Part shown: positions 38,723 to 59,173 of the stretch, one piece after another
Numbering within the stretch: position 1 is the stretch's first letter
How the letters are laid out: each line of letters begins with the position of its first letter
Assembly (NCBI GenBank): GCA_903831575.1
Contig: CAIKYB010000027.1
Span: 62,001 to 126,000 of the forward strand
Reading direction: 5' to 3'
Length of the DNA stretch: 64,000 nt
DNA from: an uncultured Bacteroidota bacterium
GTDB lineage: Bacteria; Bacteroidota; Bacteroidia; Chitinophagales; Chitinophagaceae
Made by a program: the position numbers and the translations under genes
Notes under the pieces: generated by a model
The model's input: the letters and a program-made list of their open reading frames with translations, nothing else
Told to the model about the DNA's origin: nothing
The model's database searches: none

Positions 38723-38829
38723 AGGCGGGTTCTACATGTCCTTAAAATAGTCGTTTTTTGATAACTTACGCCGTTATTGCTAACGAGGTTAGCTATATTA
38801 TTATTAATCACTTTTTTGTCTTGATTCAA

Positions 38830-41800
38830 ATGCATGCTATGAGAAAAATAAGATTACTATTTTCGATTTTTACAACCAAAAGCCAATCCGTTTTTTTGAG
38901 AACAAGCGCACTGTTAATGATAGCAGCGATGAGTGTTTTTTTAATTGCTGGTAAAGCTAAAGCCCAGTTTACTTCAACTTGGGGATTAACGGCAACAACG
39001 CTTAAAACTTCCGCTGTTGCTGGAGTTCAAGCTGCAAATATTATTGCCGGGGATATGGTTCCAGGGACCAATTTTGCTACTCCAGGTTCGCATAATACGA
39101 GTGGTTATGAATGTGCTCAAACAATAGGCAATTGGCCCAATGTTGCTACTGATAATTATAATATCGATTTTCCCATCTCTCCAGTAGGGTCAAATGATTT
39201 GACGATAGCAGGAGTAGTTTTCGATGGTAAAACTTCAAATAGCAGCGGTGATAATCTGGCGAGTTTGGCTTATCAAGTTGATGGAGCGGGTGCATGGACT
39301 AGTTTTGGTGCTCCCATAACTATACCAAGCGGTGGTACAACTCTTGGTATTTCCTTTGGGACCTTAACTACAACATTTGTAAATGGACACACTTATAAAA
39401 TGCGTATGTATATCTACGCTGCTGGTACTTCAACCAACTCTGGACGTAAAGTTTTTATCAAAAATTTAATTTTATCAGGTTATACTGTACCTGGAGGTCC
39501 GCCTCCTTCAGTGTTAACAACAGCTGCAAGTGCAACAGGTAGAACAACTGCAACTGCCAGTGGAAATATTACTTCTCCATCTACATTGGGTGTTACAGCG
39601 AGCGGATTTTGCTGGGACATCAATATTAACCCAACGATTGCATTAAGTACTAAAACAACCAATGGGCCAACAACAGGTGTGTATACTCATGCTATTTTAG
39701 GGTTGACTGCAGGTACATTGTATCATGTTCGTGCATATGCAACAAATGCAGTTGGTACTTCTTATGGTGATGATGTTACTTTCACAACAGACCCTGCGAT
39801 TGTGCCTGTTTTAACAACGTCTGCAACAAGCAACATTAACATATTCTCTGCAACCAGCGGAGGTAATATTTCTGATAATGGTGGTAGTGTCATATCTGCA
39901 AGCGGAATCTGCTGGAGCACTTCACCCAATCCTACAATAGCGAACAGTATTACAACAGACGGAAGTCTTTCTGGTACTTTTGTTAGTAATATCACGGGGC
40001 TTTTGCCATCAACAACTTATTATGTAACCGCTTATGCTACAAATGCTGTTGGTACAGGTTACGGAAATCCACAAACTTTTACGACGCCGGCTCCTTCTCC
40101 AACTTTGATTATTTCAGCAGCAGGAACTGTGCTTAGTTTTGGTTCGATTTTACAAAATACCACTTCGCCCACTCAGACATTTAGTTTAACAGGATTTTAT
40201 TTAAGTCCTGCTTCTGGGAATATTACAATTAATGCTCCCGCAGGATTTAGAGTTTCCTTAAACAGTACTACTGGGTTTGCTCCATCTATACAGTTACCCT
40301 ATACCGGTAGTGCATTGTCCAGTACTATTATTTATGTAAGATTTGCTCCAACTTTGGTTAGAGATTATAATGATAGTGTAAGAGTTGTTACTACAGGATC
40401 TTCAATGGTTTATGTGAATGTTACCGGAACGGGATTGCCTGTAGGGCTTCAGTCTGGACAGGGCTTCAGCAATAAAGGGAAAGAATTTTGGGTTGGATAT
40501 GGTGCATCGGAAAAAATGTACGGCGATAACAGTCAGGATTTAAGATTCACATTTTACAATAGTAATAATGCTCCAGCAACTGTAACCTTGTCCATACCAA
40601 ATCATCCTACATTTGCTCCTGTTAGTTATACAGTTCCAGCAAATGATGCGATTACTACTAATGCAGGTGATTTTCCAGAGAGTGGAACAGATGATGCAAG
40701 ATTGGTGAATGAAGGTGTTTATACAACGGGAATTAAGATAGTCAGCGATACACCTGTTGTTGTTTACTGTCATGCTATTACAAGCTCTGTATATGCGGCA
40801 TCTGTTCTTTTCCCAACTCCTACCTTAGGAAAAGAGTATACGTCTCTCAATTTTAATCAAAGAAGTAATAACTCGGTTGGAAAATCTTATTTGTTTGTAG
40901 TAGCAACTGAAGATAATACGACTATAGAGGTAACATTACCAACTGGAGTAGAAACAGATACACATGCAGCGGGATCTACATTTACGCAGTTATTAAACAA
41001 AGGAGAGATTCTTAATTTGTTTGGGAAATCAATCGGTCATCCAAATTTGTATACCGGCAATGATTTGTCTGGAACAATTGTAAAATCAATCAGTACAACT
41101 GGAAGCTGTAAGCCGTTTGCGATGTATTCAGGAAGCAGTAAAATTACAATTGATTGTGATAATGGAAGCAGTGGTTCAGGAGATAATTTATTCCAGCAGA
41201 TGTTTCCAAAACAAGCATGGGGAAATAAAGTTATTGCGATTCCAACATTGCCTTTGATTCATAATCACTATAGAATATTGGTTGGCGATCCATTGACTGT
41301 TGTAAAAAGAAATGGCGTTGCACTAACAGGAATTATCAACAATAAATACTATGAGTATTATAACGATCTTGGAACAGTAGATATATTAGAAGGCGATAAG
41401 CCCATCATGGTTGCTCAATATATGACTACTCATGGAGAATGTAATAATGCTGGTTCAGTAGGTGATCCGGATATGATTTATTTAAGTTCTATACAACAAA
41501 CCATTGATACGGTTTCCTTTGTTTCTTCTCCTCTTGGAACTTCAGGAGGTCGCGCGCATTATTTAAATGTAGCCATACCAACTGCTGGAGTATCTACATT
41601 CAAACTGGATGGCGTGTTGCAATCAGCAGCATTCGCTCCTTTGGCAAATGACCCCTCAATATCTTATGCTCAGTTGTCTGTTGCAGAGGGTTTCCATAAT
41701 ATTAATTCTACTTCAGGTTTCAATGCCACTGCTTATGGCGTTGCAAACGATGAAAGCTATGGTTATAATGCCGGAACCAATGTCAAAAATTTATTAACAG

Positions 41801-43647
41801 GATTTTCTTTACAAAATCAGTTTGGAACAGGAACGGCGAGTAACGCTTGCCGTGATAATGAGTTTTTTGTCAGAGTAACTTTGCCTTATATGCCAATAAG
41901 TATTACCTGGGATTTCGCTGGAAATACTAACCTTTCACCTAATGCAGCTTTCATCCAGAGCAATCCTGTCCCTGAAGATAGTTTTGTGGTGAATAACCAG
42001 ACCTTATATGTATTTAAAAATCCAACGCCATACTTGTTTCATGCTGTAGGATCATTACCTGTACTGGTAACAGTAATTAGTCCAATTCCAGATGGTTGCA
42101 ATGGAGAACAAAAATTCAGTTTTAATGTAAATGTGATTCAAAGTCCTACAGCAAGTTTTGATTTGCCTGTGATTAATGGCTGTTTGAATCCTCCAATACA
42201 ATTCATTGATAATTCAATTGGCAATGGTATGACATTGGATTTATACCAATGGAATTTTGGGGACGCTGGAAGTGGTGCAAACAATACATCAACATTACAA
42301 AGTCCTACTCATACGTTCTCTACAGGTGGAACATTTGTAGTTTCTCAGAGAGTAATTACGTTAGAAGGTTGTTATGATGATTCTACCTCAACCATTGCAC
42401 TTTCAGACAAACCTGCTGCGGTTTTCAATATGCCATTAACCGGATGTCAGGGACTGCCAATAACTTTTACTAATTCATCAACAATCACATCTGGTAATAT
42501 CAGTCAATGGAATTGGAATTTTGGAGATGGCTCTGCTGTAGTAAATGCTACAAACGGTAATGCACAAACGCACACATTTGCCACTACAGGTCCGTTTACT
42601 GTTTCACTTACTGTAGTTTCATCTACAGGTTGCACTTCAGATGCAGTTACTCATTCCATTGCCATCAGTGCTATACCAACAGTAACATTAAATCCGCTAT
42701 CAAGTGTTTGTAATAATGCTGCTTCATTTGCGTTGACAGGCGGATCTCCTGCAACGGTAAGTGGTGTAGGAACAGGGGTGTATTCTGGAACTGGAGTGAG
42801 CAATGGTATTTTTGATCCTTTAGTTTCCGGATCGGGCACCTTCCCCATAACATATACTTATACCACTGCTGCAGGTTGTCAGAATGCTGCAACAGCAAAT
42901 ATTGTAGTTAATCCATCACTTACTTTATCTGTAGCTTCATTAACGGCACCAGTTTGTATAAATGATGCGCCTAAAACAATGGTGCCAAATGTTGCCGGTG
43001 GTGTATTCGCAGGGCCTGGAGTAACAGGGTCTTCTTTTAATCCATCTACTGCAGGAGTTGGAGCTCACGCTATCACATATACATTGCCAGGAAACCCTTG
43101 TTCTGTTCCTGCTGCATTTACCATTGATGTTCATCCAAATCCAACAGTAGATGCGGGAACATCACCAGTTACTATTTCAAATGGTACATCAGTAACGTTA
43201 ACGGCTACTGCCAGCGCAGGTACCTATTTGTGGACACCAGCTTCAGCATTAACTTCAACTTCAACCTTAATTACAATAGCAAACCCCTCAAGTGATATCA
43301 CTTATACATTAACGGTAACAAATACCTTTGGTTGTAAAGCGAGTGACGATGTTGCCATTACTGTACTTGGACCTTGCCTTGATCCTTCTCCTGTATTTAC
43401 ACCGAATAACGATGGTAATTATGATGTTTGGGTCGTTTCTCAGGGAAGTTGTGTAAAGCAATTGAAAGTTGATGTTTACAATAGATGGGGCGGGCTTGTC
43501 TATCATTCAGATGACTATAGAAACAATTGGAACGGGACCTGTAAAAACGCTGCGTTGCCAGATGGTACTTATTACTATGTGGTAAGTGCTACTTTATCAA
43601 CTAACAAACAGGTAGTATTAAAAGGCAATGTAACTATAATGCGTTAA
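38830..43647 (+). CDS. IgGFc-type/PKD surface protein with gliding-type (type B) CTD, copy 1
   Basis: The 1605 residues use the ATG at 38830 (38839 is also possible); the frame opens at a TTG at 38758. The signal segment ends AGKAKAQ near residue 46. Domains by eye are an N-terminal beta domain; two FN3-like repeats (about 227-320 and 325-418), each with GxCW and YATNAVGT; an Ig-like domain (422-537); an IgGFc-binding-type module (about 550-970) with EFWVGYG, DNLFQQMFP and FNATAYG; two PKD domains with WNFGD (about 1107-1290); and a C-terminal CHU_C domain (about 1515-1605) starting at FTPNNDG. T9SS probably secretes it with the PorP/SprF partner that follows 29 bases later. Confidence 0.85.
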   Translation: MHAMRKIRLLFSIFTTKSQSVFLRTSALLMIAAMSVFLIAGKAKAQFTSTWGLTATTLKTSAVAGVQAANIIAGDMVPGTNFATPGSHNTSGYECAQTIGNWPNVATDNYNIDFPISPVGSNDLTIAGVVFDGKTSNSSGDNLASLAYQVDGAGAWTSFGAPITIPSGGTTLGISFGTLTTTFVNGHTYKMRMYIYAAGTSTNSGRKVFIKNLILSGYTVPGGPPPSVLTTAASATGRTTATASGNITSPSTLGVTASGFCWDININPTIALSTKTTNGPTTGVYTHAILGLTAGTLYHVRAYATNAVGTSYGDDVTFTTDPAIVPVLTTSATSNINIFSATSGGNISDNGGSVISASGICWSTSPNPTIANSITTDGSLSGTFVSNITGLLPSTTYYVTAYATNAVGTGYGNPQTFTTPAPSPTLIISAAGTVLSFGSILQNTTSPTQTFSLTGFYLSPASGNITINAPAGFRVSLNSTTGFAPSIQLPYTGSALSSTIIYVRFAPTLVRDYNDSVRVVTTGSSMVYVNVTGTGLPVGLQSGQGFSNKGKEFWVGYGASEKMYGDNSQDLRFTFYNSNNAPATVTLSIPNHPTFAPVSYTVPANDAITTNAGDFPESGTDDARLVNEGVYTTGIKIVSDTPVVVYCHAITSSVYAASVLFPTPTLGKEYTSLNFNQRSNNSVGKSYLFVVATEDNTTIEVTLPTGVETDTHAAGSTFTQLLNKGEILNLFGKSIGHPNLYTGNDLSGTIVKSISTTGSCKPFAMYSGSSKITIDCDNGSSGSGDNLFQQMFPKQAWGNKVIAIPTLPLIHNHYRILVGDPLTVVKRNGVALTGIINNKYYEYYNDLGTVDILEGDKPIMVAQYMTTHGECNNAGSVGDPDMIYLSSIQQTIDTVSFVSSPLGTSGGRAHYLNVAIPTAGVSTFKLDGVLQSAAFAPLANDPSISYAQLSVAEGFHNINSTSGFNATAYGVANDESYGYNAGTNVKNLLTGFSLQNQFGTGTASNACRDNEFFVRVTLPYMPISITWDFAGNTNLSPNAAFIQSNPVPEDSFVVNNQTLYVFKNPTPYLFHAVGSLPVLVTVISPIPDGCNGEQKFSFNVNVIQSPTASFDLPVINGCLNPPIQFIDNSIGNGMTLDLYQWNFGDAGSGANNTSTLQSPTHTFSTGGTFVVSQRVITLEGCYDDSTSTIALSDKPAAVFNMPLTGCQGLPITFTNSSTITSGNISQWNWNFGDGSAVVNATNGNAQTHTFATTGPFTVSLTVVSSTGCTSDAVTHSIAISAIPTVTLNPLSSVCNNAASFALTGGSPATVSGVGTGVYSGTGVSNGIFDPLVSGSGTFPITYTYTTAAGCQNAATANIVVNPSLTLSVASLTAPVCINDAPKTMVPNVAGGVFAGPGVTGSSFNPSTAGVGAHAITYTLPGNPCSVPAAFTIDVHPNPTVDAGTSPVTISNGTSVTLTATASAGTYLWTPASALTSTSTLITIANPSSDITYTLTVTNTFGCKASDDVAITVLGPCLDPSPVFTPNNDGNYDVWVVSQGSCVKQLKVDVYNRWGGLVYHSDDYRNNWNGTCKNAALPDGTYYYVVSATLSTNKQVVLKGNVTIMR

Positions 43648-43676
43648 TTAAATTATTGAAGATAAAACAAAGAGAC

Positions 43677-44582
43677 ATGCGATATAAAGTATTAAGAACA
43701 TCTTTACTCCTCATTACATTATTGACATTTAATAACGTAATAAAATCACAGCAGATTTTTAAAATAAGTCAGTTTGTGCAACATAATTATCTCTATAATC
43801 CTGCAGCAGCTGGCGCAAATGAGGAAGCGTCAATTGGGCTTGCCTATAGAAAAATGTGGTCAGGTATGCCCGGAGGCCCACAAACTAATATTGTATACGG
43901 CGATAAATATTTTTCAAAAATGAAAACTGGATTAGGCGTTGTTTTATACAGCGATAAAACTGGTCCAACAAGTAGAACAGGAGGTCAGGTTGACTTGTCA
44001 TATAGTATAGATTTCGAAAAAGGAAGAAGATTAATGTTTGGCCTGGAAGGAATTTTTATGCAATATCGAATCAACAAAGAATCATTTGCACATTACATTC
44101 CCAATGACCCATTATTATTAAGCAACAGTTCAGAAATGAAAGGTGACGCAGGCGCAGGGGTTTATTACCGCTCTTCAAAACTTAACCTTGGGTTTTCAGT
44201 TCAACAACTTATGCAATCAAAACTGAATTTTCTTAAAACAAGTAGTAATTCGGAAGGTAAATTGTATCGCCATTATTTTGTTGGAGGTCATTACAATTGG
44301 AGAACCGATGAATCAAATGTGTTGATTCCTAATGTCATGATTAATTTCGTTCCAAATTTGCCTGCAGAGGTTGAGTTGGGAGTAAGATTAGAACACCAGG
44401 ATATATTATCTATAGGGGTTAGTTATCATTATCATCAAGGGTTTAGTGCATATACGGGCATAAAGGCTTATAAGAAATTAGCTATCGGTTATGCGTTATC
44501 GGTATATAAAACTCCCCTTGGTGTTTTTGAAGATGGGGGAGAGGCTCATGAGTTTTCATTAAGATATTTCTTTGCTAAGTAG
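43677..44582 (+). CDS. PorP/SprF-family T9SS outer-membrane protein
   Basis: The 301 residues begin at the ATG at 43677 (MRYKVLRTS); the TTG at 43656 is less likely. After a signal peptide the mature protein starts QQIFKISQFVQHNYLYNPAAAGANEEA, the PorP/SprF signature, and continues as an amphipathic beta-barrel with GVVLYSDKTGP and a Phe-Ala-Lys end. In Flavobacterium the SprF protein is needed for secretion of its type B partner SprB. The position directly behind a type B surface protein fits that pairing. Confidence 0.88.
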   Translation: MRYKVLRTSLLLITLLTFNNVIKSQQIFKISQFVQHNYLYNPAAAGANEEASIGLAYRKMWSGMPGGPQTNIVYGDKYFSKMKTGLGVVLYSDKTGPTSRTGGQVDLSYSIDFEKGRRLMFGLEGIFMQYRINKESFAHYIPNDPLLLSNSSEMKGDAGAGVYYRSSKLNLGFSVQQLMQSKLNFLKTSSNSEGKLYRHYFVGGHYNWRTDESNVLIPNVMINFVPNLPAEVELGVRLEHQDILSIGVSYHYHQGFSAYTGIKAYKKLAIGYALSVYKTPLGVFEDGGEAHEFSLRYFFAK

Positions 44583-44638
44583 TAACAACGATTTGATTTT
44601 AATTATAGACCTATAAATAATTGCTTGATTCATATTCC

Positions 44639-47600
44639 ATGTTTTACATAAAATCCAATAAATTTTTAAGCTTCATTAATAGAAGCGTTTGCTTGTCAAT
44701 CCTATTTTTAGTTTATTTCAATACCAACGCACAAGACTTTTCTAACAGAGGTACTGACTTTTGGACGGGCTATGGTCCGCACGAAAAAATAAGCAGTGGT
44801 AATAGTGACATGACTTTGTATTTTACTTCAGACAATGCGGCTACTGTTACAATTTACATCGGGAATGCTCTTTTTCAAACTTTAAATATTCCTGCAAATT
44901 CTATTACCGCTTCAAATAATATTCCTGAAACAGGAGCTTCAGATGCGCGCTTACAAAATGAGGGTGTATACATTAACAAGGGGATTTATATACATAGCAC
45001 AAGCCCTATAGTTGCTTATGCGCAAATTTGGGGAAGTCAGGTAACGGCAACGACTATCCTGTTTCCATTAAAAACGCTCGGAAGAAAATACACCTCCTTA
45101 AATTACACCCAGGTTTCCAATGCAACGGGTATGAGATCTTATGTATTTGCCATTGCAACTGAAAATGGAACGATCATAGAAGCAAAGCCTTCTGCAGCAA
45201 CATCTACTGCATTACCTGTTGGCAGCTGGACATCAAGGACTTTAAACAAAGGAGACGTTTGGCTGATTCGTGGTGCAGCTGATAATACAGATTTGACTGG
45301 TACGCAATTTCGGTCAGTGGCGAGTGCAACAGGGGCTTGTAAACCCATAGCCGTTTTTGCGGGGAGTCAAAAAATATCAGTTACTTGTTCAAGTTCATCA
45401 GCATCAAGTGACAATCTCTTTCAGCAATGCTTTCCCGTTGCAGCTTGGGGAAGAAAATTTGTAAGTGCTCCAACAGCAGGATTAAATTATTCCAATAATA
45501 TTTACCGAGTAATGATTAATCCCGACAGTATGTCTACTGTTGTGAAAGTAAATGGGATATCATTGCCTGGATCAGTGCCTGGCTTAAGTCCTGTAAGTAC
45601 ACCACTAATAGTTGGAGCTCCAATATCCATGACCGGTTCTTTGTATTATGATTTTGTAACTGCTGTGCCGATTAAAATAGAAACGACTTCCCCTGTAATG
45701 GTGGCTCAATATCTTACAAACAAAGACAAATGTGGTAATAGCTTTGGTTCAGGAAGCGATCCGGATATGGTTTATGTCAGTCCTGTAGAACAGACGGTAG
45801 ATTCCATTATTGTTTCTCCAGTTCCAACCAGTAATAATGATGCACTCAATTATATCAATGTAAATATTAAGACAACAGATGTCGCAGGATTTTCGATTAG
45901 AAATCAGGCGAATGTTATTGTGCCGGCAATTTTTCTGCCAAATCCTGCAGACCCTACTTATTCTTATGCTCAAATTGTACTAACTGCGGGGTATTCCACT
46001 GGTGTTTTCTACAAATTAAAAACAATTACCGGAGGATTTAATGCCATTGCCTATGGCTATGCTTCGAGTGAAAGTTACGCTTATAATGCAGGAACGAATG
46101 TGAGAAATCTGAATCACTATTTAACCAGTACAAATCCTTTTAGTGCGAATCCGGTGTCCAGAATATGTAAGAGTACGCCTACAAGATTGTCCGTTACCTT
46201 GCCATATATTCCTTCTTCCTTTACATTCGATTTCTTTAATAATATTCATATTGCACCTAATGTTAGTGTAACAAGAACAGCTCCTGCTGTAGACAGTACC
46301 TATATTTTAAATGGTACAACATTGTATGTATTTTACCTGCCAGGGCTATACAAATTTGATTCATTAGGGAATTATCAGGTTCGGGTTTCTTCAAATAATC
46401 CATCCCCTGATGGATGTAATGGCTTAGAAGAAGTTAATTATGATTTGGAAGTGACTGGCGGACCGTTAGCAAGTTTTACTACTTCATTCTCAGGTTGTGC
46501 ATCAAATGCAGTTACGTTTTTAAATACGTCTATTGATACACTTAACACTATATCTCTTTATGATTGGCAGTTTGGTGATGGCTCAGGGTTATCAAATGCA
46601 TCGAATCCGAATTATACCTATACAGGAGCAGGCCCTTATGCTGTTCGTTTCAGAGTAATTAATAATGACGGGTGTTATGATGACACTATAAAAATTTTGA
46701 GTTTTCAAAATGTGCCCATTTCGAATTTTGGATTTACCGGAATTTCATGTGTGAGTAATACCATTTCCTTCAGTGATTCATCAACTATTTCCAATGGATC
46801 TATTGTAAAGTGGACATGGGATTTTGATGATGGAAGTCCTTTATTGATATCAAACACTTCTGTAAATCCAACTCATGTGTTTACTGCTGCCAGAACGTAT
46901 AGAGTGAAACTAACGGTAGAAAATGCAAGCGGATGTTCAGTTACCCATTTTGAAGATGTCGTGATTGGAAATATTCCTTTTGCAAATTTTGATTTGCCTG
47001 GAAATGTTTGTTTGCCCAACTCAGCGACATTCAACAATACGTCAACGGTTAGTGGCGGAGGTGTATTGACATATACATGGGATTTTGGTGATGGCTCTTT
47101 AATAAGTACAGCTACAAATCCGATTCATAATTACATTTCAACAGGCTCATTTCCTGTGAAACTCACCGCATCATTAGGTACATGTAAAAAAGATACTACC
47201 AAAACTTTCAATACATTATATAAGAATCCAATTGTAAAATTTGGCGTGAAGGCTGAAAATTGCATCAATACTTTAACTGTTGTTTCTGATAGCAGTACTT
47301 CACAAAACTCTCTTATCAATAATTGGAGTTGGTTGATGGATGGTGCGGTAACTTCCAATTCGCAAAACGCTTCTTATTCTTTCTCAACAGTAGGCCCTCA
47401 TAGTATAAAGCTGGTTGTAACTACAGATAAAGGATGTGTAGATTCATTAGAAAAAACAGTAACTATAAATCCATTGCCAGATGCGGTTTTCAGTGTTGTG
47501 AATCCGGCATGCGAAACAAAATTAGTTTCATTTACAGAAGCTTCTGTACCTAATGCAGGCAGTATTGTAGAATGGGACTGGGATTTTGGTGATGGTGCAC

Positions 47601-49042
47601 ATCAAGTGTTTACAAGTGTAACAACGGTTAGTCATATTTATCCAGCCGCAGGTGTTTATCCGGTTAAACTTGTTGTTAAAACAGACAAAGGATGCTATAG
47701 CAATACTGCTCCACAAAATATCACCATCAATGCAACTCCTTTAGCTGGCTTTGATTACTTACCGTTAAGCCTATGCGCACCAGCAAGTGTGAATTTGAAT
47801 AATACAACAATAATCGGCGATGGTACAATTACACAAGTTGCCTATTCATGGAATTTTGGAAATGGGAATACAAGTATATTGTCAAATCCTGTCATGAGCT
47901 TTCCAAACGGAGGACAGTTTCCTGTTTTACTAGTTGCAACAAGTGTTGCAGGATGCGTTGACAGCGCATCAAATACTATTGATGTGTATTCATTGCCCAA
48001 TGCCAGTTTTAATCTAGTGAATGCAGGAAATGTTTGCAGTAATAAACCATTAACAATACAAAGCAGTTCAACGCTTTCAGGATTTGGCAGTATAGATAAA
48101 GTAGAAATATTTTGGGATTATTTAAATAATATTTCAGCTGTTACTATAGATAATAATCCATTGCCCAATGAAAACTATAATCACAATTACGCAACATTTG
48201 GTTCTCCATTGATTAAGCAGTATCGTGTTTTGGTAAGAGTATATAACGGTAACTCCTGTACTAAGGATTATTATCAGGATATAGATGTGCATGCTGCCCC
48301 TGATATCAATTTCCCTGCTTTAAATGCAGCATGTCAGGAAGTGCCTGTATTTACTTTAACAATGCCTATTAATAATAACCCCGCATTAATAGGGATAGGA
48401 TTATTTTCTGGAACGGGCGTTACTTCAGCTGGTGTTTTTAATCCGGAAATAGCCGGTAGCGGAATTCATCATATTCTATATACATTTACTGGAACTAATG
48501 GATGCGAGGATTCGGCTTCTCAACAAATTGAGGTTTATCCAACACCAATACTTAACTTTCCTCCTTCATTTAATATATTAGAAGGAGATGCGGTGCAATT
48601 GACCCCTAATGTTTTGCCGGCTAATCCAGCCAATTACAGTTGGACTCCTGCTGATTATTTAGATGCGGCCAATCTTTTAACGCCAATTTGTAAACCCACT
48701 CAAGACATAACTTATACCGTTTCTGCAATTTCTGCGAACGGCTGTAAAAATGAAGATCTGATTATTGTGAAAGTAGTGAAGGATTTCATCGTCCCTAATA
48801 CATTTACACCTAATAACGATGGTATCAATGACAAATGGATTATAGAGAACCTATCTCTTTATCCCAAGTTTCAAATTCAAGTATTTGATCGTTATGGACA
48901 AATTGTTTTTGAATCAAAAAACTATTCAAATTGGGATGGCAAATTTAAAGGGAAGCCTTTGCCTGCGGGAACTTATTATTACATTATAGATCTAGATGGA
49001 CAGAGAACAACAAAAAAAGGATACGTGACAATAGTTAGATAG
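44639..49042 (+). CDS. IgGFc-type/PKD surface protein with type B CTD, copy 2
   Basis: This 1467-residue protein uses the ATG at 44639; a TTG at 44621 is upstream. The signal peptide ends NTNAQ, and the IgGFc-type module follows at once (about 34-495) with DFWTGYG, SDNLFQQCFP, DPDMVYVSPVEQ and FNAIAYG. It thus lacks the FN3 and Ig-like lead of copies 1 and 3. About seven PKD units cover residues 605-1220. The fourth is degenerate, with WLMDG in place of WDFGDG. The CHU_C type B domain (about 1381-1467) begins at FTPNNDG. No PorP/SprF gene follows before copy 3, so it may share a neighbour's partner. Confidence 0.85.
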   Translation: MFYIKSNKFLSFINRSVCLSILFLVYFNTNAQDFSNRGTDFWTGYGPHEKISSGNSDMTLYFTSDNAATVTIYIGNALFQTLNIPANSITASNNIPETGASDARLQNEGVYINKGIYIHSTSPIVAYAQIWGSQVTATTILFPLKTLGRKYTSLNYTQVSNATGMRSYVFAIATENGTIIEAKPSAATSTALPVGSWTSRTLNKGDVWLIRGAADNTDLTGTQFRSVASATGACKPIAVFAGSQKISVTCSSSSASSDNLFQQCFPVAAWGRKFVSAPTAGLNYSNNIYRVMINPDSMSTVVKVNGISLPGSVPGLSPVSTPLIVGAPISMTGSLYYDFVTAVPIKIETTSPVMVAQYLTNKDKCGNSFGSGSDPDMVYVSPVEQTVDSIIVSPVPTSNNDALNYINVNIKTTDVAGFSIRNQANVIVPAIFLPNPADPTYSYAQIVLTAGYSTGVFYKLKTITGGFNAIAYGYASSESYAYNAGTNVRNLNHYLTSTNPFSANPVSRICKSTPTRLSVTLPYIPSSFTFDFFNNIHIAPNVSVTRTAPAVDSTYILNGTTLYVFYLPGLYKFDSLGNYQVRVSSNNPSPDGCNGLEEVNYDLEVTGGPLASFTTSFSGCASNAVTFLNTSIDTLNTISLYDWQFGDGSGLSNASNPNYTYTGAGPYAVRFRVINNDGCYDDTIKILSFQNVPISNFGFTGISCVSNTISFSDSSTISNGSIVKWTWDFDDGSPLLISNTSVNPTHVFTAARTYRVKLTVENASGCSVTHFEDVVIGNIPFANFDLPGNVCLPNSATFNNTSTVSGGGVLTYTWDFGDGSLISTATNPIHNYISTGSFPVKLTASLGTCKKDTTKTFNTLYKNPIVKFGVKAENCINTLTVVSDSSTSQNSLINNWSWLMDGAVTSNSQNASYSFSTVGPHSIKLVVTTDKGCVDSLEKTVTINPLPDAVFSVVNPACETKLVSFTEASVPNAGSIVEWDWDFGDGAHQVFTSVTTVSHIYPAAGVYPVKLVVKTDKGCYSNTAPQNITINATPLAGFDYLPLSLCAPASVNLNNTTIIGDGTITQVAYSWNFGNGNTSILSNPVMSFPNGGQFPVLLVATSVAGCVDSASNTIDVYSLPNASFNLVNAGNVCSNKPLTIQSSSTLSGFGSIDKVEIFWDYLNNISAVTIDNNPLPNENYNHNYATFGSPLIKQYRVLVRVYNGNSCTKDYYQDIDVHAAPDINFPALNAACQEVPVFTLTMPINNNPALIGIGLFSGTGVTSAGVFNPEIAGSGIHHILYTFTGTNGCEDSASQQIEVYPTPILNFPPSFNILEGDAVQLTPNVLPANPANYSWTPADYLDAANLLTPICKPTQDITYTVSAISANGCKNEDLIIVKVVKDFIVPNTFTPNNDGINDKWIIENLSLYPKFQIQVFDRYGQIVFESKNYSNWDGKFKGKPLPAGTYYYIIDLDGQRTTKKGYVTIVR

Positions 49043-49101
49043 TTGATTGGTCATTAGTCTTGAAATATTGATAAAGTGCTTGAAATAATTTAAAATAAAC
49101 C

Positions 49102-52100
49102 ATGATGAGAGTATATCTATTAGTGCTGTTTTGCTTTTTGGGGTTATCAAATGAGGCCTCTGCTCAACCCTATAATTACACATTAGAAGGGTTTGATGAT
49201 GTCGTTGCTTTCCCAGCTGCAAGTATGCAAACGGCTACAGTTGCAACTACTTATATATCTTCAACAGGGTTATGGACCATTTTTAAGGGATACCCTGTAA
49301 TAGGTTCTGATCCTTGTCTTGATGATGGCGTTAACAGAGCGCTAAGATTACCTAGTGGCGCTGCGGCTTATGTAGTATCCCCAACTTTAACTCAAGGGGT
49401 AGCTACGATAACATTTAATAATAAAAGAACCAATAAAATATTTACTTATTACACTTCATTGGATAATGGAGCAACCTGGAGTGCCGGTGCAAATATTACA
49501 AGTCCACTCACTGCATGTGGCACCATGACAATTACAATTAATAGTGGTGTTATCAATAGAATTAAGATTGCAAATAATCAGGCTAATGACATGGGGATTG
49601 ACAATCTGTTGATCACTAGTTTCACCATAAATCCTCCATTAGTTACTACCGCTACCGTTAGTGCTGTTACAGCTGTTAGCTCCTCATGTGGTGGCAATGT
49701 TACTGCAGATGGTGGGGCGCCTGTAACAGCAAGGGGTGTTTGCTGGAATACTGCAGCCAATCCAACCATTGTAAACTCTATTACAAATGATGGCACTGGT
49801 CTTGGAGCATTCAACAGTTCTCTTGCTGGTCTTTTGCCATCTACAACTTATCATGTTAGAGCTTATGCAACTAACTCATCAGGTACCGGTTATGGAGGTG
49901 ATTCTGTATTTACAACTTTACCACCCTTGCCAACTATTACAGTTAGTCCATCATCACTTTCTTTCGGAACTGTTTACCAGGGTTCTTATTCTTCAGAGCA
50001 AACCTATACCGTTTCTGGAATTTTTCTAACACCTGCTGCAGGCAACATAACTATAACAGCTCCTGCGGGATATATTATTTCTACAACAAGTGGAGCAGGG
50101 TATACTTCTACACTTACTATTCCATATTCTGGAACAACATTGTCACCAACAGTAATTTATATCAGATTCTCTCCTCCAACTAATGGCGCATTTAATACAA
50201 CTATACTGCATAGTGGCGGTGGAGCTCCTTCAGTAAATCTTATCGTTACTGGCATAGGATCGTTATTGACATCAGCGGGTAACTTAACCAATATGGGTAC
50301 AGATTTTTGGACAGGATATGGATTTCATTCAAGAATGGTAAATAATGACGCTACTAACGGTTCCTGGATGTCATTATATATTTCCGCAAAGCAAGCAACA
50401 ACTGTTCGTGTATCCTTACCCGGTATAGCAGATCCTACATTTCCAAGAATCGTTAATATCCCTGCGAATTCATCAGTAGAAGTTACCAATTTTCCTCAAG
50501 GCAATTTTGGAGTTAATAACGATAATCCTACAAACTTGCCTGATGCGAGATTGTATTTTACTGGTACAACACCCCGAGGAATACATATAGAGAGTTTGAG
50601 TGGTGTTCCCGTTGCAGTTTATGAACATACTTATGGTAAAGATGCAGCTGGTGCGATGTTACTTTTCCCGACGAATACTTGGGGAGCTACTTACAATGTT
50701 TTGTCTTTGGGGGGTAAATCAAATAGTGGTTCTCCAAATTCCTTTTTCTTTGTAATGGCATCAGAAGATAATACAGTTATTGAAATCACTCCAAGTGCAA
50801 ATATTATAGACTCTTCATCAAACAGCTTATTTAATACGAGTACTACAACTAATATAAAATATCCTGCAAATACTCCTTTCACCATTACCTTGAATAAAGG
50901 ACAGGTATTCAATGCAATGGGTGAGCTTGTAAACGCTGTAGGGGCTGATCTTACCGGTTCTCTTGTAAGGTCAGTCAACTGCGATAAAAAAATAGCAGTG
51001 TGGGCTGGTAATGGCAGAACATTTGTAAATACTACTGGTTGTAGCGTAAGTAGTGGTTCAGATAATATGTTGCAACAAATGTTCCCACGTGTAGCCTGGG
51101 GTACAAAGTATCTCACCACTCCAACAAAAACGATGGAGTACAGTATATATAAAATTTGTGTTCAGGATCCTACTACAAGAGTATGGGTTAATAATCCTAC
51201 TCATACAACTCCATTAACTGGTTTGGTTGGTGCTTTTTATTATCAGATTGAGAATAACACCTACAATTTGATTGAAAGTGATAAGCCAATAATGCTAATT
51301 CAATATGTTGTTACTGGCGGCTGCAAAAACAATACGTTTGGGAATAACGGAAATGGAGATCCGGAAATGATTATTCTTAGTCCAGTACAACAAGCCATCA
51401 ATAATGTTTCAGTGTTTTCTGCCGGAAGAATGACCATTTCAACAAATGGAGCCAGTTATATAAATGTAGTCATAAAAAATGGCGGTATTCCTAGTTTTAG
51501 ATTAGATCCAACAGTTAATACTACTCAAATGGTGGATACAGGAACATCGAGTTATGGAACCACATCAATATATGGATCGTCAACGCTTATCCCAATTGCA
51601 AATGCATTTAAGTTGCATCCTAACGATCCAGGATATTCATATGCAAGATTTAGAGTTTCATCTAATCTATTTCATAATCTATTATCAGACACGGGGTTTA
51701 ATGCAATTGCTTATGGTATGGCTCAAGGAGAAAGTTATGGTTTCAATGCAGGTACTGCAATCAAAAATTTATCTGCAATTGTTCAGACCATCAATCCATT
51801 CGATTCTGTGAGTGGAACCAAAACATGCCGGGGAAATCCTGTTACTTTACAAATAGCTGTTCCATACCTGAGTTCTCAAATTACATCTATCAACTGGGAT
51901 GTTACAACCAATAGCAATATTTCACCTAATGGTTCATTTCCTGTATTTAATCCAGTGCCTATCAGAACTTATGTTCAAAATGATATTACTTATTCTGTAT
52001 TTACTTCGCCTACTCCAATTGTATTTAACGCAACTGGTGTTTTTCGTTTGACTGCAACTATTTCAGGAACATTTTCAAGCGAATGCGGTAATTCGCAAGT

Positions 52101-55100
52101 AGTACCGATTGATATGGTAGTCATTGCAGACACGCCGCGTTTTAAAATTGTTACAACAGGTTGTTCAAGCACTCTGGTAACTTTTACGGATTCTTCTGGC
52201 GTATACAGTGGGAATAATATTGTTAAATGGCTATGGAATTTTGGAGATGCAACAACGTCAACCGTGCAAAATCCACCGCAACACAACTATCCATCTATTG
52301 CTGTGTATAATGCAAGTCTTCGTATCATTAATAATATCGGATGCTTCTCTGATACATCTGCACTGATTGATCTTACAGGAGGCATCAAAGCAAAATTTGG
52401 AGTTGCACCAAACGACACTATTTGTAGCACAACAACTGTATTTTTTTCTGATACTTCTTTAAGTTCAGGTGCTTATGGTCCAATAACAGAATGGCATTGG
52501 GATTTTGGGGAAGGTGCGCCGGTTGTTGCAATAACAAATGCTAATCAATCACACACCTATAATACTTTAGGAAATTATTTTGTGACCCTTCAGGTGAAAA
52601 CAAGTAATGGATGTTTAAGCAATATTTTTAAAGATACCATTGTTGTTAATGCTACACCTTCAGTTTCGGTTACTGCAAGTTTAAATACTTGTTTGAAAGA
52701 TAGTATACAATTTACCGGCAATGTAACCTATCCGGGAACAGTGTCTGAATTTCACTGGAATTTTGATGATTTGTCTTCTGGGGCTAACAATACAAGTCTT
52801 ATTCAGAATCCTAAACATCTCTTTTCAACTTCAGGATTACATAATGTCAAGTTTTATGTGGTAGCTCCGGGAGGTTGCAGCTCTAATATTTATAATCTTC
52901 CTGTAACTATTCAGCCTCAGCCAACAGCCGCTTTCAATTATACATCACCGGCTTGTGCTAAAAGTGCTGTAACTTTTACTGATTTATCCACTCCTAATGC
53001 AGGCACAATTACGGAATGGAACTGGGATTTTGGTGATGGTGCTACCGAACTACATTTGAATGGAAATTCTTTTACGCATCAATATTTGACTGGAGGAACT
53101 TACAATATTAAGCTAACGGTTAAAACAAATAACGGTTGCTATGATGATTCTATAAAAGTAATTACAGTTAATGCAACTCCTGAAGTGAAATTTACGTTGC
53201 CCGGAAATTTATGTTTGCCTAATGCCTCTGCAACATTTACAAATAATACCACCATAAATGACGGCACAATTGCTACTGTAACATATTTGTGGGATTTTGG
53301 AGATCCTTCATCAGGAGCTTTGAATGTTAGCGCACTACAAAATCCAATACATATTTACAATGCAACAGGAAACTATTCAGTGAAACTTACAACTACAAGT
53401 GCTTTAGGTTGTGCTCATGATACTACTATTGTTTTCAATGCAATCTATCCTGCACCACTTGCTGTGTTTACCCCACCAGTTCAGGTATGTATGAATGACA
53501 GTATTCAGTTTGCAGATCAAAGTACTCCTGCTGGCGGCATCAGTTCGTGGAGCTGGAATTTTGGAGATGGAGGAGTCGCAGGTACATCTGCTTTGCAAAA
53601 TCCTAAACACAGATGGAATACAGCGGGTCCATTTACGGTTACCTTAACTGTTACTTCTTCTTTCGGTTGTTCTTCAATATCAACAGCACAATCTTCTCAA
53701 CTTATTACTGTTAATACAGCGCCAACTATTTCATTAAATACAGCTTCTGCAACAACTACACAATCATTGTGTTTAGGAACCGCAATTACGAACATTGAAT
53801 ATAATTTAGGAGGTAGCGCTACATCCGCAACAGTTACAGGTTTGCCAGCTGGTGTCACGGGTTTGTATGTTGCTGGAGTATTTACCATTTCAGGAAGTCC
53901 TAGTTCAGGAGGGATTTATAATTATACTGTTACAAGTGTAAGTCCTTGTACGAATGTCTCTTTGGGAGGCACAATAACAGTTCAAACATTGCCAACTATA
54001 AATTTATCTTCAGCTGCAGGTACAGACAATCAATCCGTTTGTGTTAACACAGCCATTGCGGATATAACTTATACATTGGGTGGAAATGTAAATGGAGCCG
54101 TGCTATCTGCCGGGAGTCTTCCTGTGGGAATAACGGGTAGTTTTAATGCAGGAGTATTCACCATAAGCGGCATTCCAACTTCTACGGGAGTATTTAATTA
54201 TACAGTAACGTCGGTGAGTACATGTAGTAATGTTTCAATGAATGGAACCATAACTATAAATGCATTGCCAGACGCTAATTTTACTTTCAGCACGATTCGT
54301 TGTGAAGGAGAGGACGTAACATTTACTTATACAACAACAGCTGGAGCTGCTGCAATTTCTCAATGGCAATGGAATTTTGGTGATGGAACAGCAGTACAAA
54401 CTCAATTGGTACAAGCAACAATAAATCACACGTATGTTTTGCCGGGCAATAATACCGTACAATTAAGTGTTACAAATATTAATGGCTGTGTTAGTCCTGT
54501 AAATACATCTCCTGTAGTTGTTACAATTAATCCAAAGCCAGTTTCTGCATTTAATTTTTCAGATGTTTGCCTTCCTGTTGATATTGCCACATTTACAGAC
54601 TTGAGTACTCCTGTAGGGAATATAAATTTGTGGGAATGGGATTTTGGAGATGCAAGTCCAATTCAGACTTCGACTACTGCAGGTAATATAACGCATCAAT
54701 ATCTTAATGGGGGTGAGTATGATGTAACGTTGACAACAACATCATTGGATGGCTGTAAAAAAGATTCTATCCGAAAAATAAAAGCATTTACTCCTCCAAA
54801 TGCATCTTTTACAATAAATAATACAGGAAATATTTGCAGTAATGTGCCTTTAGAAATTACCAATACCAGTAGTGGTTCAGCATATGGCAATATAAATCAA
54901 GTTGAAATTTTGTGGAATATTCCAGGAACAAATAATACAATTGATAATACGCCAACAGCTAATGAAGTTTATGCTCATTTATATCCTTTGTTTGGAACAC
55001 CTGCAACACAATCATACCAGGTTCTCATAAAAGCGTCTACAGGTAACAGTTGTATGGGACAATCAATACCTCAGACTATTACATTATATGCTGCACCGGA

Positions 55101-55839
55101 TGTGATATTTAACGCAATATCTTCTGTTTGTGAGGAAGCTCTAAGTGTTACACTTAACTCTGCAAGTGATATCTATAACAATATCGGCACTGGCATTTAT
55201 TCAGGATCAGGTATTGCAACAAGTCCAGTATTAAACCCTTCAACAGCAGGAGCCGGATCTCATTCCATCCTTTATACCTTCACAGGAAATAATGGTTGTA
55301 TGGATACTGCTAGTCAAAATATTTTCATTTATCCAACACCTAAAATTGAACTTGGTGCGGATAGGAATGTCTTGGAAGGGGATCAATTGACTTTAGTGCC
55401 TGTTTTGTTATCTGGCTCTGGGCTTGTCTATTCTTGGACACCTTCTACTTATTTAGATAATCCTTTATCAGCAACACCCATTACCACTCCATTAAATGAT
55501 ATTAGTTATTTAGTGGACATTACTTCTATTGACGGATGTAAATCCAGCGACTTAGTTAATATAAAAGTGGTAAGAGACTTTATCGTTCCAAATACGTTCA
55601 CTCCAAATGGAGATGGCATAAATGATAAATGGGAAATTGAATTTTTGTCTTTGTATCCAAATCATCATATTCAGATATTCAATAGATATGGCCAGGTGAT
55701 TTTAGATACTAAAAATTACATTACGCCATGGGATGGAACATACAAAGGGAAGCCATTGCCGGCAGGAACTTATTATTATATCATTGATTTGGATGGATTA
55801 AGAGCTACCAAAAAAGGATATATAACGATAATAAAATAA
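49102..55839 (+). CDS. IgGFc-type/PKD surface protein with type B CTD, copy 3
   Basis: This is a 2245-residue secreted protein with a short signal peptide (ends SNEASAQ). The order is an N-terminal beta domain (about 30-175), one FN3-like repeat (176-273), an Ig-like domain (276-390), an IgGFc-type module (398-890; DFWTGYG, SDNMLQQMFP, FNAIAYG), about six PKD units (1009-1536), two tandem 90-residue repeats (1541-1722), three more PKD units and a CHU_C type B domain (2156-2245). It is the largest of the three and most similar in its last 90 residues to copy 2. A PorP/SprF gene follows 43 bases later. Confidence 0.85.
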   Translation: MMRVYLLVLFCFLGLSNEASAQPYNYTLEGFDDVVAFPAASMQTATVATTYISSTGLWTIFKGYPVIGSDPCLDDGVNRALRLPSGAAAYVVSPTLTQGVATITFNNKRTNKIFTYYTSLDNGATWSAGANITSPLTACGTMTITINSGVINRIKIANNQANDMGIDNLLITSFTINPPLVTTATVSAVTAVSSSCGGNVTADGGAPVTARGVCWNTAANPTIVNSITNDGTGLGAFNSSLAGLLPSTTYHVRAYATNSSGTGYGGDSVFTTLPPLPTITVSPSSLSFGTVYQGSYSSEQTYTVSGIFLTPAAGNITITAPAGYIISTTSGAGYTSTLTIPYSGTTLSPTVIYIRFSPPTNGAFNTTILHSGGGAPSVNLIVTGIGSLLTSAGNLTNMGTDFWTGYGFHSRMVNNDATNGSWMSLYISAKQATTVRVSLPGIADPTFPRIVNIPANSSVEVTNFPQGNFGVNNDNPTNLPDARLYFTGTTPRGIHIESLSGVPVAVYEHTYGKDAAGAMLLFPTNTWGATYNVLSLGGKSNSGSPNSFFFVMASEDNTVIEITPSANIIDSSSNSLFNTSTTTNIKYPANTPFTITLNKGQVFNAMGELVNAVGADLTGSLVRSVNCDKKIAVWAGNGRTFVNTTGCSVSSGSDNMLQQMFPRVAWGTKYLTTPTKTMEYSIYKICVQDPTTRVWVNNPTHTTPLTGLVGAFYYQIENNTYNLIESDKPIMLIQYVVTGGCKNNTFGNNGNGDPEMIILSPVQQAINNVSVFSAGRMTISTNGASYINVVIKNGGIPSFRLDPTVNTTQMVDTGTSSYGTTSIYGSSTLIPIANAFKLHPNDPGYSYARFRVSSNLFHNLLSDTGFNAIAYGMAQGESYGFNAGTAIKNLSAIVQTINPFDSVSGTKTCRGNPVTLQIAVPYLSSQITSINWDVTTNSNISPNGSFPVFNPVPIRTYVQNDITYSVFTSPTPIVFNATGVFRLTATISGTFSSECGNSQVVPIDMVVIADTPRFKIVTTGCSSTLVTFTDSSGVYSGNNIVKWLWNFGDATTSTVQNPPQHNYPSIAVYNASLRIINNIGCFSDTSALIDLTGGIKAKFGVAPNDTICSTTTVFFSDTSLSSGAYGPITEWHWDFGEGAPVVAITNANQSHTYNTLGNYFVTLQVKTSNGCLSNIFKDTIVVNATPSVSVTASLNTCLKDSIQFTGNVTYPGTVSEFHWNFDDLSSGANNTSLIQNPKHLFSTSGLHNVKFYVVAPGGCSSNIYNLPVTIQPQPTAAFNYTSPACAKSAVTFTDLSTPNAGTITEWNWDFGDGATELHLNGNSFTHQYLTGGTYNIKLTVKTNNGCYDDSIKVITVNATPEVKFTLPGNLCLPNASATFTNNTTINDGTIATVTYLWDFGDPSSGALNVSALQNPIHIYNATGNYSVKLTTTSALGCAHDTTIVFNAIYPAPLAVFTPPVQVCMNDSIQFADQSTPAGGISSWSWNFGDGGVAGTSALQNPKHRWNTAGPFTVTLTVTSSFGCSSISTAQSSQLITVNTAPTISLNTASATTTQSLCLGTAITNIEYNLGGSATSATVTGLPAGVTGLYVAGVFTISGSPSSGGIYNYTVTSVSPCTNVSLGGTITVQTLPTINLSSAAGTDNQSVCVNTAIADITYTLGGNVNGAVLSAGSLPVGITGSFNAGVFTISGIPTSTGVFNYTVTSVSTCSNVSMNGTITINALPDANFTFSTIRCEGEDVTFTYTTTAGAAAISQWQWNFGDGTAVQTQLVQATINHTYVLPGNNTVQLSVTNINGCVSPVNTSPVVVTINPKPVSAFNFSDVCLPVDIATFTDLSTPVGNINLWEWDFGDASPIQTSTTAGNITHQYLNGGEYDVTLTTTSLDGCKKDSIRKIKAFTPPNASFTINNTGNICSNVPLEITNTSSGSAYGNINQVEILWNIPGTNNTIDNTPTANEVYAHLYPLFGTPATQSYQVLIKASTGNSCMGQSIPQTITLYAAPDVIFNAISSVCEEALSVTLNSASDIYNNIGTGIYSGSGIATSPVLNPSTAGAGSHSILYTFTGNNGCMDTASQNIFIYPTPKIELGADRNVLEGDQLTLVPVLLSGSGLVYSWTPSTYLDNPLSATPITTPLNDISYLVDITSIDGCKSSDLVNIKVVRDFIVPNTFTPNGDGINDKWEIEFLSLYPNHHIQIFNRYGQVILDTKNYITPWDGTYKGKPLPAGTYYYIIDLDGLRATKKGYITIIK
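53722..54267 (+). repeat. Tandem 90-residue repeat inside surface protein copy 3
   Basis: Two adjacent units begin at 53722 and 53992, each reading P-T-I-x-L, then a Gln-Ser-x-Cys motif, a GG turn, GVF(T)ISG and NYTVTSVS. The repeat period is 270 bases between equivalent codons. The copies differ at many codons and are not recent duplicates. This looks like a putative-Ig/cadherin-type spacer rather than a PKD domain. Confidence 0.75.
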
Positions 55840-56914: not shown

Positions 56915-56951
56915 TTTTTACAAGATATTAAAATCGATTTTACTTATAAAA

Positions 56952-58421: not shown

Positions 58422-59173
58422 AAAAAACAATGTTGATTATTCTGGCAGGGTTGTCACTCGCTTTTATTTTGCCTGAAAAAAAGAAAATTAAAATTTGGAT
58501 GTGTGGCGATAGCACCATGAGTATAAAGGAAACGAAAGCTTATCCCGAAACTGGATGGGGTATGCCATTTGCCTATTTCTGGGATACATCTGCAGTTTCG
58601 GTGGTGAACAAAGCCAAAAACGGAAGAAGTACCAAAACTTTTATTACTGAAGGTATTTGGCAATCTGTAATTGATCAAGTGGAAGAAGGTAATTATGTAT
58701 TTATCGAATTTGGACACAATGATGAATCGAAAGAAAAAAAAGAAAGATACACCACATTGGAAGAGTATAAAGCTAATCTTGAAAAGTTTATAAATGAAAC
58801 CCGAGCTAAAAAAGCTATACCTGTTTTGTTTACTCCAGTAAGCCGCAGAAAATTTGATACAGATGGTCATGCTTTTGAAACACACAAAGAATATTCAGCA
58901 GCAGTAAGAGAGGTAGCAATAGCACAAAATATGCCATTGATAGATCTCGATAAAAAAACAATGGCGCTTTACGAGAAGTTCGGAGTAGAAAATTCTAAAT
59001 TATTATTTCTGCAATTGCAACCAGGAGAACATCCCAATTATCCTGATGGCAAAGAAGACAATACACATTATGGAGAATTAGGCGCAAGGTTAGTAGCACA
59101 AATGGCCCTGGCAGAATTGAAGGTTAAATTTCCGGAACTTAATGACATGCTTATAAAGCCTGTAAAAAAATAA
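58418..59173 (+). CDS. SGNH hydrolase, rhamnogalacturonan acetylesterase-like
   Basis: The 251 residues begin with a signal peptide-like segment. SGNH blocks are in place: GDST with nucleophile S32, the NGRST stretch with its conserved Asn, GHND with N101 and the D214-x-x-H217 pair in DNTHYGELGA. These fit CE12-type rhamnogalacturonan acetylesterase or closely related esterases. It would deacetylate pectin so the lyase and GH28 enzymes can act. It is translationally coupled to the pectate lyase, with its ATG overlapping that gene's stop. Confidence 0.88.
   Translation: MKKTMLIILAGLSLAFILPEKKKIKIWMCGDSTMSIKETKAYPETGWGMPFAYFWDTSAVSVVNKAKNGRSTKTFITEGIWQSVIDQVEEGNYVFIEFGHNDESKEKKERYTTLEEYKANLEKFINETRAKKAIPVLFTPVSRRKFDTDGHAFETHKEYSAAVREVAIAQNMPLIDLDKKTMALYEKFGVENSKLLFLQLQPGEHPNYPDGKEDNTHYGELGARLVAQMALAELKVKFPELNDMLIKPVKK

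Follow-up and report, generated by a model that had tools for sequence, protein, structure and literature searches.

We analysed a 64,000-nucleotide stretch of DNA (the window) from an uncultured Bacteroidota bacterium of the family Chitinophagaceae (GenBank assembly GCA_903831575.1, contig CAIKYB010000027.1, positions 62,001 to 126,000 of the forward strand), in which three genes for giant surface adhesins and two genes for carriers of the PorP/SprF type form a cassette in the middle of a pectin-use locus. The gene order is copy 1 (38830-43647), PorP1 (43656-44582), copy 2 (44621-49042), copy 3 (49102-55839) and PorP2 (55883-56914), with 8 to 59 bases between neighbouring open reading frames (ORFs) as listed, and every window feature given coordinates here lies on the + strand. 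A first-pass annotation had described three proteins with an IgGFc-type core, PKD units and a type B tail at this place, as ORFs and profiles confirm, but it took them for a plain tandem, which the PorP1 gene interrupts and the PorP2 gene follows. It overlooked both carrier genes and the pectin context, which hold most of the functional information. Display of the three adhesins is apparently divided between two unlike carriers in the outer membrane, the cysteine tail of one carrier may hitch its cargo to the gliding motor, and the cassette may link eating the plant cell wall to moving over it.

Copy 1 lies in an ORF running from 38758 to 43647, whose first ATG, at 38830, is the start used in the first-pass annotation; the three ORFs comprise 1629, 1473 and 2245 codons. 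Each copy contains one full-length match to PF17517 (IgGFc_binding), at 182, 138 and 166 bits against a cut-off of 25.6 (E-values 2e-53, 4e-40 and 1e-48), so that the predicted IgGFc-type core is recognised by profile search. These cores lie at 40798-41739 in copy 1 (residues 681-994), at 45050-46057 in copy 2 (the core modelled below) and at 50653-51717 in copy 3 (placed in the core tree below), and they cover profile positions 2-297 without an internal stop. Pfam gives 2, 6 and 8 PKD_4 stretches in copies 1, 2 and 3, which agrees with the earlier by-eye count of about 2 for copy 1 and falls below the 7 and 9 proposed for the other two. All three proteins end in a type B sorting tail over cut-off (CHU_C/TIGR04131, 60.6, 77.8 and 78.6 bits; cut-off 35), found at 43393-43644 in copy 1 (carrier-1 tail type), 48788-49039 in copy 2 (carrier-2 tail type) and 55582-55836 in copy 3. 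A lead sequence and an Ig-like part precede the core in copies 1 and 3, and copy 2 has no lead, as had been claimed; the labels FN3 and Ig-like themselves did not pass Pfam cut-offs, the FN3 in the copy 1 lead being a sub-threshold match (21.6 bits, cut-off 25), FN3 not being listed for the copy 3 lead in the Pfam scan, and the Ig-like parts giving no Pfam match above cut-off in either copy.

Since adjoining PorP/SprF carriers are a trait of type B substrates, and the adhesin genes here adjoin two of them, all three copies are probably exported by the type IX secretion system (T9SS) through their type B tails. The cassette is a real, conserved and modular adhesin set whose general kind, T9SS proteins of type B together with PorP/SprF carriers, is known; its setting is unusual, and the proposed division of labour between two carriers is testable. 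The source genome (2.44 Mb, 99% complete) contains 12 type B tail matches in total, 11 of them over cut-off, and nine PorP/SprF genes; a fourth IgGFc copy (C20) lies on another contig with its own carrier.

The two cassette carriers are clear family members (PorP1, PF11751 at 201.8 bits and TIGR03519 at 208.5 bits; PorP2, PF11751 at 214.5 bits) with unlike C-termini. PorP1 ends in SLRYFFAK, its mature form lacking cysteine altogether, while PorP2 ends in SDSCPKNVW, whose terminal CPKNVW (56894-56911) holds the proposed track-linking cysteine. Neither carries the Cys-Xaa-Cys of SprF-type carriers, so neither is filed as SprF. To place these ends in context, we considered 106 non-redundant IgGFc-carrier neighbours in which the carrier lies no more than 500 bases downstream, a non-random sample from one family obtained by a best-match scan (best 80 loci). 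A Cys-Pro pair occurred within the last 12 residues of 82 of the 106 carriers, and these 82 are all the Cys-Pro pairs in 33,231 mature carrier residues (shuffle mean 0.2); among other ORFs, 7 of 1809 had such a pair in their last 12 residues. The Cys-Pro tail is present in PorP2 of all five genomes that have the cassette and in PorP1 of none. Among the nine carriers of the source genome, the last six residues include Cys-Pro in five, a sixth has the pair further in, and the mature form of the other three, including PorP1, is free of cysteine.

Tails and carriers also vary together. Over the 106 pairs, the tail-carrier distance correlation was 0.776, compared with 0.183 for core and carrier, and within the 62 CPxxW-type pairs the values were 0.666 and 0.297; genome relatedness was left in this test, so all r values include kinship. 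When cores were taken into account, none of 2000 permutations reached the tail-carrier value in either set, while the core-carrier value given tails was reached by 1 of 2000 (106 pairs) and 42 of 2000 (62 pairs). The carrier assigned to each copy is a putative one that follows from homology: the tail of copy 1 would pair with PorP1 and those of copies 2 and 3 with PorP2.

Around the cassette lies a set of genes that by their sequences cover most steps from pectin to uronate catabolism. The pectin genes seen begin upstream with a GH28 polygalacturonase-like enzyme (30483-31994, PF00295, 124.6 bits), followed by a secreted protein of 2099 amino acids with a type A tail (32303-38602; TIGR04183, 29.1 bits, cut-off 23), in which Ig_7 and fn3 are over cut-off and Por_Secre_tail (23.6 bits) is under its cut-off of 27. 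Downstream, PorP2 is followed by a pectate lyase-like, PelZ-related protein (56886-58421), which matched NF041900 at 118.7 bits, well under the equivalog cut-off of 840, and no Pfam model; a GDSL esterase resembling the pectin acetylesterase PaeY (58418-59173; NF041897, 94.4 bits, well under the cut-off of 1000); a pectinesterase (59177-60127; PF01095, 235.7 bits); a GFO/IDH/MocA oxidoreductase (60106-61176); a GH43 glycosidase with a GH43_C2 domain (61180-62778); a DUF4440 protein that is a conserved member of the locus (62781-63209); and the start of a second GH28 enzyme (63341-64000), with which the locus runs on beyond the window. After this GH28 gene come a GH88 gene, another pectinesterase, enzymes like UxaB, UxaA and UxaC, a PfkB kinase and SusC, which stands at the far end of L037; SusC and SusD are both present in the congener G034. 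Hydrolase, lyase and esterases are thus clustered with uronate catabolism, the lyase and acetylesterase being the two under equivalog cut-offs. In its GH28, pectate lyase-like, pectinesterase, acetylesterase-like, GH43, GH88, SusC and uronate genes the locus resembles the pectin polysaccharide utilization loci of Bacteroidota, from which it differs in that adhesins of type B and their carriers are encoded within the cluster itself, at its middle.

This arrangement is conserved. A scan of named genomes recovered copy 1 at 76-78% core identity in four loci (L171-L174), of which L173 is a short contig that stops in PorP1. The order type A giant, copy 1, PorP1, copy 2, copy 3 is kept in L171, L172 and L174, and PorP2 and the pectate lyase-like, GDSL and pectinesterase genes then follow in all three of the metagenome-assembled genome (MAG) loci followed (L171/L257, L172/L258 and L174/L259), each time on one contig with the cassette; L259 showed no GFO gene, and L258 stops inside the UxaB-like gene. 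Across the window and these three Chitinophagaceae MAGs the adhesins and carriers are 56-70% identical. A GH28 orthologue lies upstream of the block in two of these loci, at 65% identity in L171 and at 72% in L174, where it is encoded on the opposite strand, and relatives of the type A giant precede copy 1 in L171 (52%), L172 (39%) and L174 (59%). In the four genomes copy 2 spans 1463-1473 residues and copy 1 spans 1447-1743, and by coordinate arithmetic copy 3 has about 2060-2360 residues across genomes; the differences in length within the set are old and have stayed stable. In the congener G034 the order is copy 1-like, PorP1, an S74 protein, copy 3-like and PorP2, flanked by GH43, SusC and SusD and by GH28-, GH88-, pectinesterase-, UxaB-, UxaA- and UxaC-like genes. 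Since the order is kept in the MAGs and, with exchanged heads, in G034, the arrangement is old, and the pectin setting is retained in five of five cassette genomes.

Two variations on the cassette were seen. The type A giant also stands before copy 1 in L173, where it is partial, and L172 has two of them side by side. In G034 the slot of copy 2 is filled by a protein of 756 amino acids (L038:7931-10201) with an S74 endosialidase-chaperone domain (34.7 bits), a domain known from trimeric phage fibres.

The source genome also encodes a candidate partner for a tail cysteine. GldK is present, its RNRKGC aligning with RTGRGC of PorK such that the cysteine corresponds to PorK Cys356, and GldD and GldH are over cut-off. 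In Flavobacterium johnsoniae, type B tails depend on their cognate PorP/SprF carriers, although some crosstalk occurs, and it is this tail/carrier pairing that sets whether the cargo is mobile or static (PMC12618676), while the tail cysteines of SprF form disulfide bonds with GldK and are needed for sustained adhesin movement and not for export (PMC12635249). In the latter study, SprF with the second cysteine alone still carried some adhesins on sustained paths, and PorG of Porphyromonas gingivalis works with one cysteine. PorP2 and its cargos share with SprB-SprF of F. johnsoniae a giant type B protein followed by its PorP/SprF carrier and a cysteine in a short carrier C-terminal tail, with the partner cysteine kept in GldK; they differ in that PorP2 has Cys-Pro with one cysteine where SprF has Cys-Xaa-Cys, in that the heads bear an IgGFc core and PKD repeats, and in that three cargos and two carriers lie in a pectin locus.

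Based on the SprF-GldK analogy and on the GldK, GldD, GldH and GldJ-like genes, we propose that PorP2 is coupled to the gliding track and that PorP1 is static. Three rod-like proteins would be exported by the T9SS through their type B tails, copy 1 being handed to its own carrier PorP1 and copies 2 and 3, with their near-duplicate tails, sharing PorP2. Each tail-carrier pair would act as a stable dock on which the heads (leads, IgGFc core and PKD stalk) are exchanged over evolution. The Cys-Pro tail of PorP2 would form a disulfide with the track cysteine of GldK, such that the track draws copies 2 and 3 over the cell surface as adhesins of the gliding type, whereas copy 1, on a PorP1 without such a cysteine, would remain fixed in place as an anchor. 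Pectin-rich wall material of plants or algae would be held by the heads, allowing the cell to grip and move over the polymer that it digests. A surface-adhesin cassette in a pectin-use locus, with track-coupled PorP2 cargo and static PorP1 cargo, is a reading to which we give an even chance.

We regard as more tentative, and as holding less often than it fails, the broader proposal that pectin loci carry their own motility hardware, in which tail type alone decides whether a swappable head goes to a cysteine-tailed carrier coupled to the gliding track or to a cysteine-free one that keeps it still, the Cys-Pro carrier tail being a portable code for moving versus fixed surface proteins across Chitinophagaceae and perhaps Bacteroidota, and that this supplies the missing link between pectin uptake and gliding. 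In flavobacteria, pectin-induced colony expansion requires gldJ and coincides with SusC/D induction, a link left unexplained in the available part of PMC8056085, in which known gliding proteins were not pectin-induced and nothing was found on adhesins encoded in pectin loci. Adhesins in a pectin locus are a candidate for that link. The distinction between mobile and fixed type B adhesins has, from what is available of PMC12618676, been worked out for a handful of F. johnsoniae proteins, and with a carrier tail motif that predicts the two from sequence, in a locus that has both kinds as neighbours, a single genome would suffice to test the question. A literature search found no paper joining IgGFc-binding with type IX secretion or gliding motility; among the matches listed for IgGFc-binding with Bacteroidetes or FCGBP none concerned a bacterial protein by title, and among those listed for carrier disulfides PMC12635249 alone was on the subject by title or start of abstract, the others being on T9SS in general or off topic.

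Several observations weigh against our reading. Twenty-four of the 106 carriers lack a tail cysteine, three of them otherwise of the CPxxW class, and most carriers in the sample have a single cysteine as opposed to the Cys-Xaa-Cys of SprF; in F. johnsoniae the loss of either SprF cysteine abolished gliding on agar (PMC12635249). In the 20 CP(R/G/A)L-type pairs the covariation reverses (tail-carrier 0.370 versus core-carrier 0.505), with partial r values of 0.079 for tails, which 543 of 2000 permutations reach, and 0.378 for cores, so the rule that the tail follows the carrier is not universal. The GldH model also finds a match in a Bacteroides control, and the match of the GldJ-like protein is under the curated cut-off. 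The static pairs of F. johnsoniae come with a PorE-like gene (PMC12618676), and the scan of window genes around PorP1 recognised none of OmpA/PorE type. With regard to pectin, 12 of 177 IgGFc loci, the window and cassette MAGs included, have a pectin-like gene in the fetched stretch, a count made by similarity to the window's pectin genes and without G034, whose pectin genes lie outside the IgGFc locus as cut; the pectin genes and the lead-type copies of G068 stand on different contigs. Binding of pectin by the heads, the core included, is putative.

These observations bear on two other explanations. One is that all carriers are static anchors, the Cys-Pro serving a PorE- or OmpA-like disulfide or the folding of the barrel, and the cassette being a sticky coat for plant particles. 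Static display has a precedent in Fjoh_3952-Fjoh_3951 of F. johnsoniae, a pair that is static (PMC12618676), and PorP-bound type B cargo is also reported to be anchored in P. gingivalis (PMC9143113). Fjoh_3952-Fjoh_3951 and PG1035-PorP of P. gingivalis both consist of type B cargo with its own PorP/SprF carrier and are our model for copy 1 and PorP1, but both work with PorE or a PorE-like protein. Single-cysteine carriers not fitting the SprF motif would suit this explanation, as would Cys-Pro being a possibly generic feature that ends five of the genome's nine carriers. However, GldK is the demonstrated partner of such a carrier tail cysteine (PMC12635249, available part), and the genome has GldK alongside GldD, GldH and the GldJ-like protein, so we consider static anchoring throughout unlikely, if the strongest of the alternatives.

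The other is that placement among pectin genes is incidental, with heads that serve in contact between cells, in flocculation or in fending off grazers or phages and that are simply co-expressed with those genes on plant debris. PF17517 is widespread (63 of the 117 family genomes sampled have it, and two of these reach 17 and 18 copies), and most IgGFc loci have no pectin-type genes in the stretches searched. In contrast, four genomes with adhesins and carriers diverged to 56-70% identity retain the pectin linkage, as does the more distant congener G034, and in G047 a lead-type copy adjoins GH88-, UxaB- and UxaC-like genes. We judge incidental placement to be unlikely as well, by a shade more than static anchoring, and retain as the preferred reading adhesins that serve the pectin locus on one track-coupled and one static carrier.

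The 24 carriers without a tail cysteine fall into five of PorP1 type (those of the window, G034, L171, L172 and L174), three that are CPxxW-like (L058, L212 and L223) and 16 of a third kind. The tail cysteine of an otherwise CPxxW-type carrier is replaced by threonine in L058 (7845-8885), and the Cys-Pro-class carriers in L212 (14485-15489) and L223 (4756-5754) have shortened tails without cysteine; these three are natural test cases for the track-linking idea. The third kind stands behind IgGFc genes in L191, L192, L197, L199, L204, L207, L209, L211, L217, L218, L220, L226, L233, L236, L246 and L248, ends near (L/M)(K/R)S(I/L)F, and has a cysteine whose distance from the end is 64 residues, or 66 in L220.

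The first-pass annotation had explained the set by local tandem duplication of one gene followed by module gain and loss, giving rods of graded length, and had proposed comparing the phylogenies of cores and tails. We did so with a tree of 31 cores hand-chosen from 126 non-redundant IgGFc proteins (an earlier tree had 63 cores), a tree of 36 chosen tails from which L175 and L176, whose ends are not type B, were left out (an earlier one of 31 rows was distorted by these two), and a carrier tree of 29 rows. The core of copy 3 falls in a clade (100/100) with three cores of the congener G034, in which four PF17517 matches were counted, and with copies from other genomes that have a lead. Copies 1 and 2 have their cores in another part of the tree, as weak, long-branched sisters (94/89). 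Forcing the three window cores together cost 100 log units (approximately unbiased (AU) test, p = 1.9e-10), and uniting the core of copy 1 with that of the same-place copy in G034 cost 114 (p = 4e-92). A clade of the three tails was likewise rejected (AU p = 4e-66), as were one of the tails of copies 1 and 2 (p = 5e-7), despite their cores being sisters in the best tree, and one of the copy 1-like and copy 3-like tails of G034 (p = 4e-4). The three-copy group was named in the first-pass annotation; the other groups were picked after identities had been seen, which makes their p-values less clean.

Some similarities do favour a common local origin, including the sister cores of copies 1 and 2, the mutual match, at 65.9 and 69.8 bits, between the Ig-like parts that precede the cores in copies 1 and 3, the retrieval of copy 1 by the copy 3 lead at 125 bits (copy 3 was not listed in the search the other way round), and the match at 160 bits between the tails of copies 2 and 3, whose last 100 residues are 72% identical. 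Yet the three-copy clade is rejected for both cores and tails, the set is common to four genomes, and the window cores are just 38-45% identical to one another. Recent tandem triplication is therefore rejected by the AU tests and recent duplication refuted, and the local duplication scheme as first proposed is improbable; a much older duplication followed by replacement of parts may have occurred. The gain and loss of modules that formed the other half of the proposal is supported, as is an exchange of modules.

Tails instead group as the carriers do. Copy 1 tails, including that of the congener, form a group of 10 rows (100/100) with the tails of four non-IgGFc proteins that precede PorP1-type carriers (L114, L117, L122 and L129), the six copy 1 tails alone being insecure (95/66). 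Of the two that were domain-scanned, L114 and L117, both have BNR-type and Vps10-type matches, which we take to be beta-propellers, and SprB-repeat matches (under cut-off in L114). One tail type is thus common to IgGFc proteins of two clades and to these putative propeller proteins. In the carrier tree, PorP1 of the window, G034, L171, L172 and L174 form one group (98), and PorP2 of the window and G034 form a separate one with the carrier of the fourth copy (99). Since tails and carriers group in one way and cores in another, the tail goes with the carrier, and the tail-carrier dock has received different heads over time, which explains why whole-protein comparison of such giants misleads. Separate tail clades and two dissimilar carriers speak against a single carrier for all three copies. 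In L171 the tails of copies 2 and 3 are sisters (99/93), as gene conversion (homogenisation) would give, and in L172 and L174 they group by position and not within the genome.

With regard to the IgGFc core itself, a profile search of PDB chains for a solved relative gave no match at E <= 1. AlphaFold2 models of the copy 2 core, alone (predicted local distance difference test (pLDDT) 88.1, predicted template modelling score (pTM) 0.90) and with the following domain (pLDDT 85.8, pTM 0.85), are predicted to consist almost entirely of beta strands. Structure searches with Foldseek and VIA-align gave local matches alone, the best (Z 8.3) on residues 460-577, and the domain after the core matched Ig-like domains locally; for the core alone the best Z was 6.9 over 92 residues, and the tool calls all these local matches common. 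These searches found no whole-core match to a solved fold, which does not make the fold new. The top full-length match in a viral library was the predicted structure of FirrV-1-C4 of Feldmannia irregularis virus a (BFVD Q6XLX4; Foldseek E = 2.8e-9, template modelling (TM) score 0.50, root-mean-square deviation 6.7, 8% identity), the next viral match being far weaker (E = 1.1e-5, TM 0.14), and going by these models a brown-algal virus may carry the same module. The Pfam family is named after vertebrate FCGBP; its profile is matched end to end by the cores (138-187 bits), but the window proteins are bacterial and bear a T9SS tail and PKD repeats. Binding of IgG Fc or mucin, which the family name suggests, is scarcely credible for proteins whose neighbours are pectin enzymes and whose relatives' records name pond, lake and groundwater samples among others.

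Elsewhere in the family, a frequent arrangement is a long-lead IgGFc protein, then a short-lead one, then a carrier (L041, L043-L048, L053, L054, L090, L092, L094, L095, L098, L099 and others). The long leads have about 1570-2150 residues in the 5'-complete proteins checked, and more in some cut ones; the carrier after such a pair usually ends in CPRL or similar, and the two partners mostly differ in their tail ends (like KKGSINLIR versus TGSVTIIR). In L175 and L176, copy 1-like proteins (51% identical) have no adjoining carrier recognised. Two metagenomic phage records of 635 and 642 kb (LR745206.1 and LR756502.1) contain stretches 30-32% similar to the end of copy 2, covering its residues 1280-1473 and including the type B tail region.

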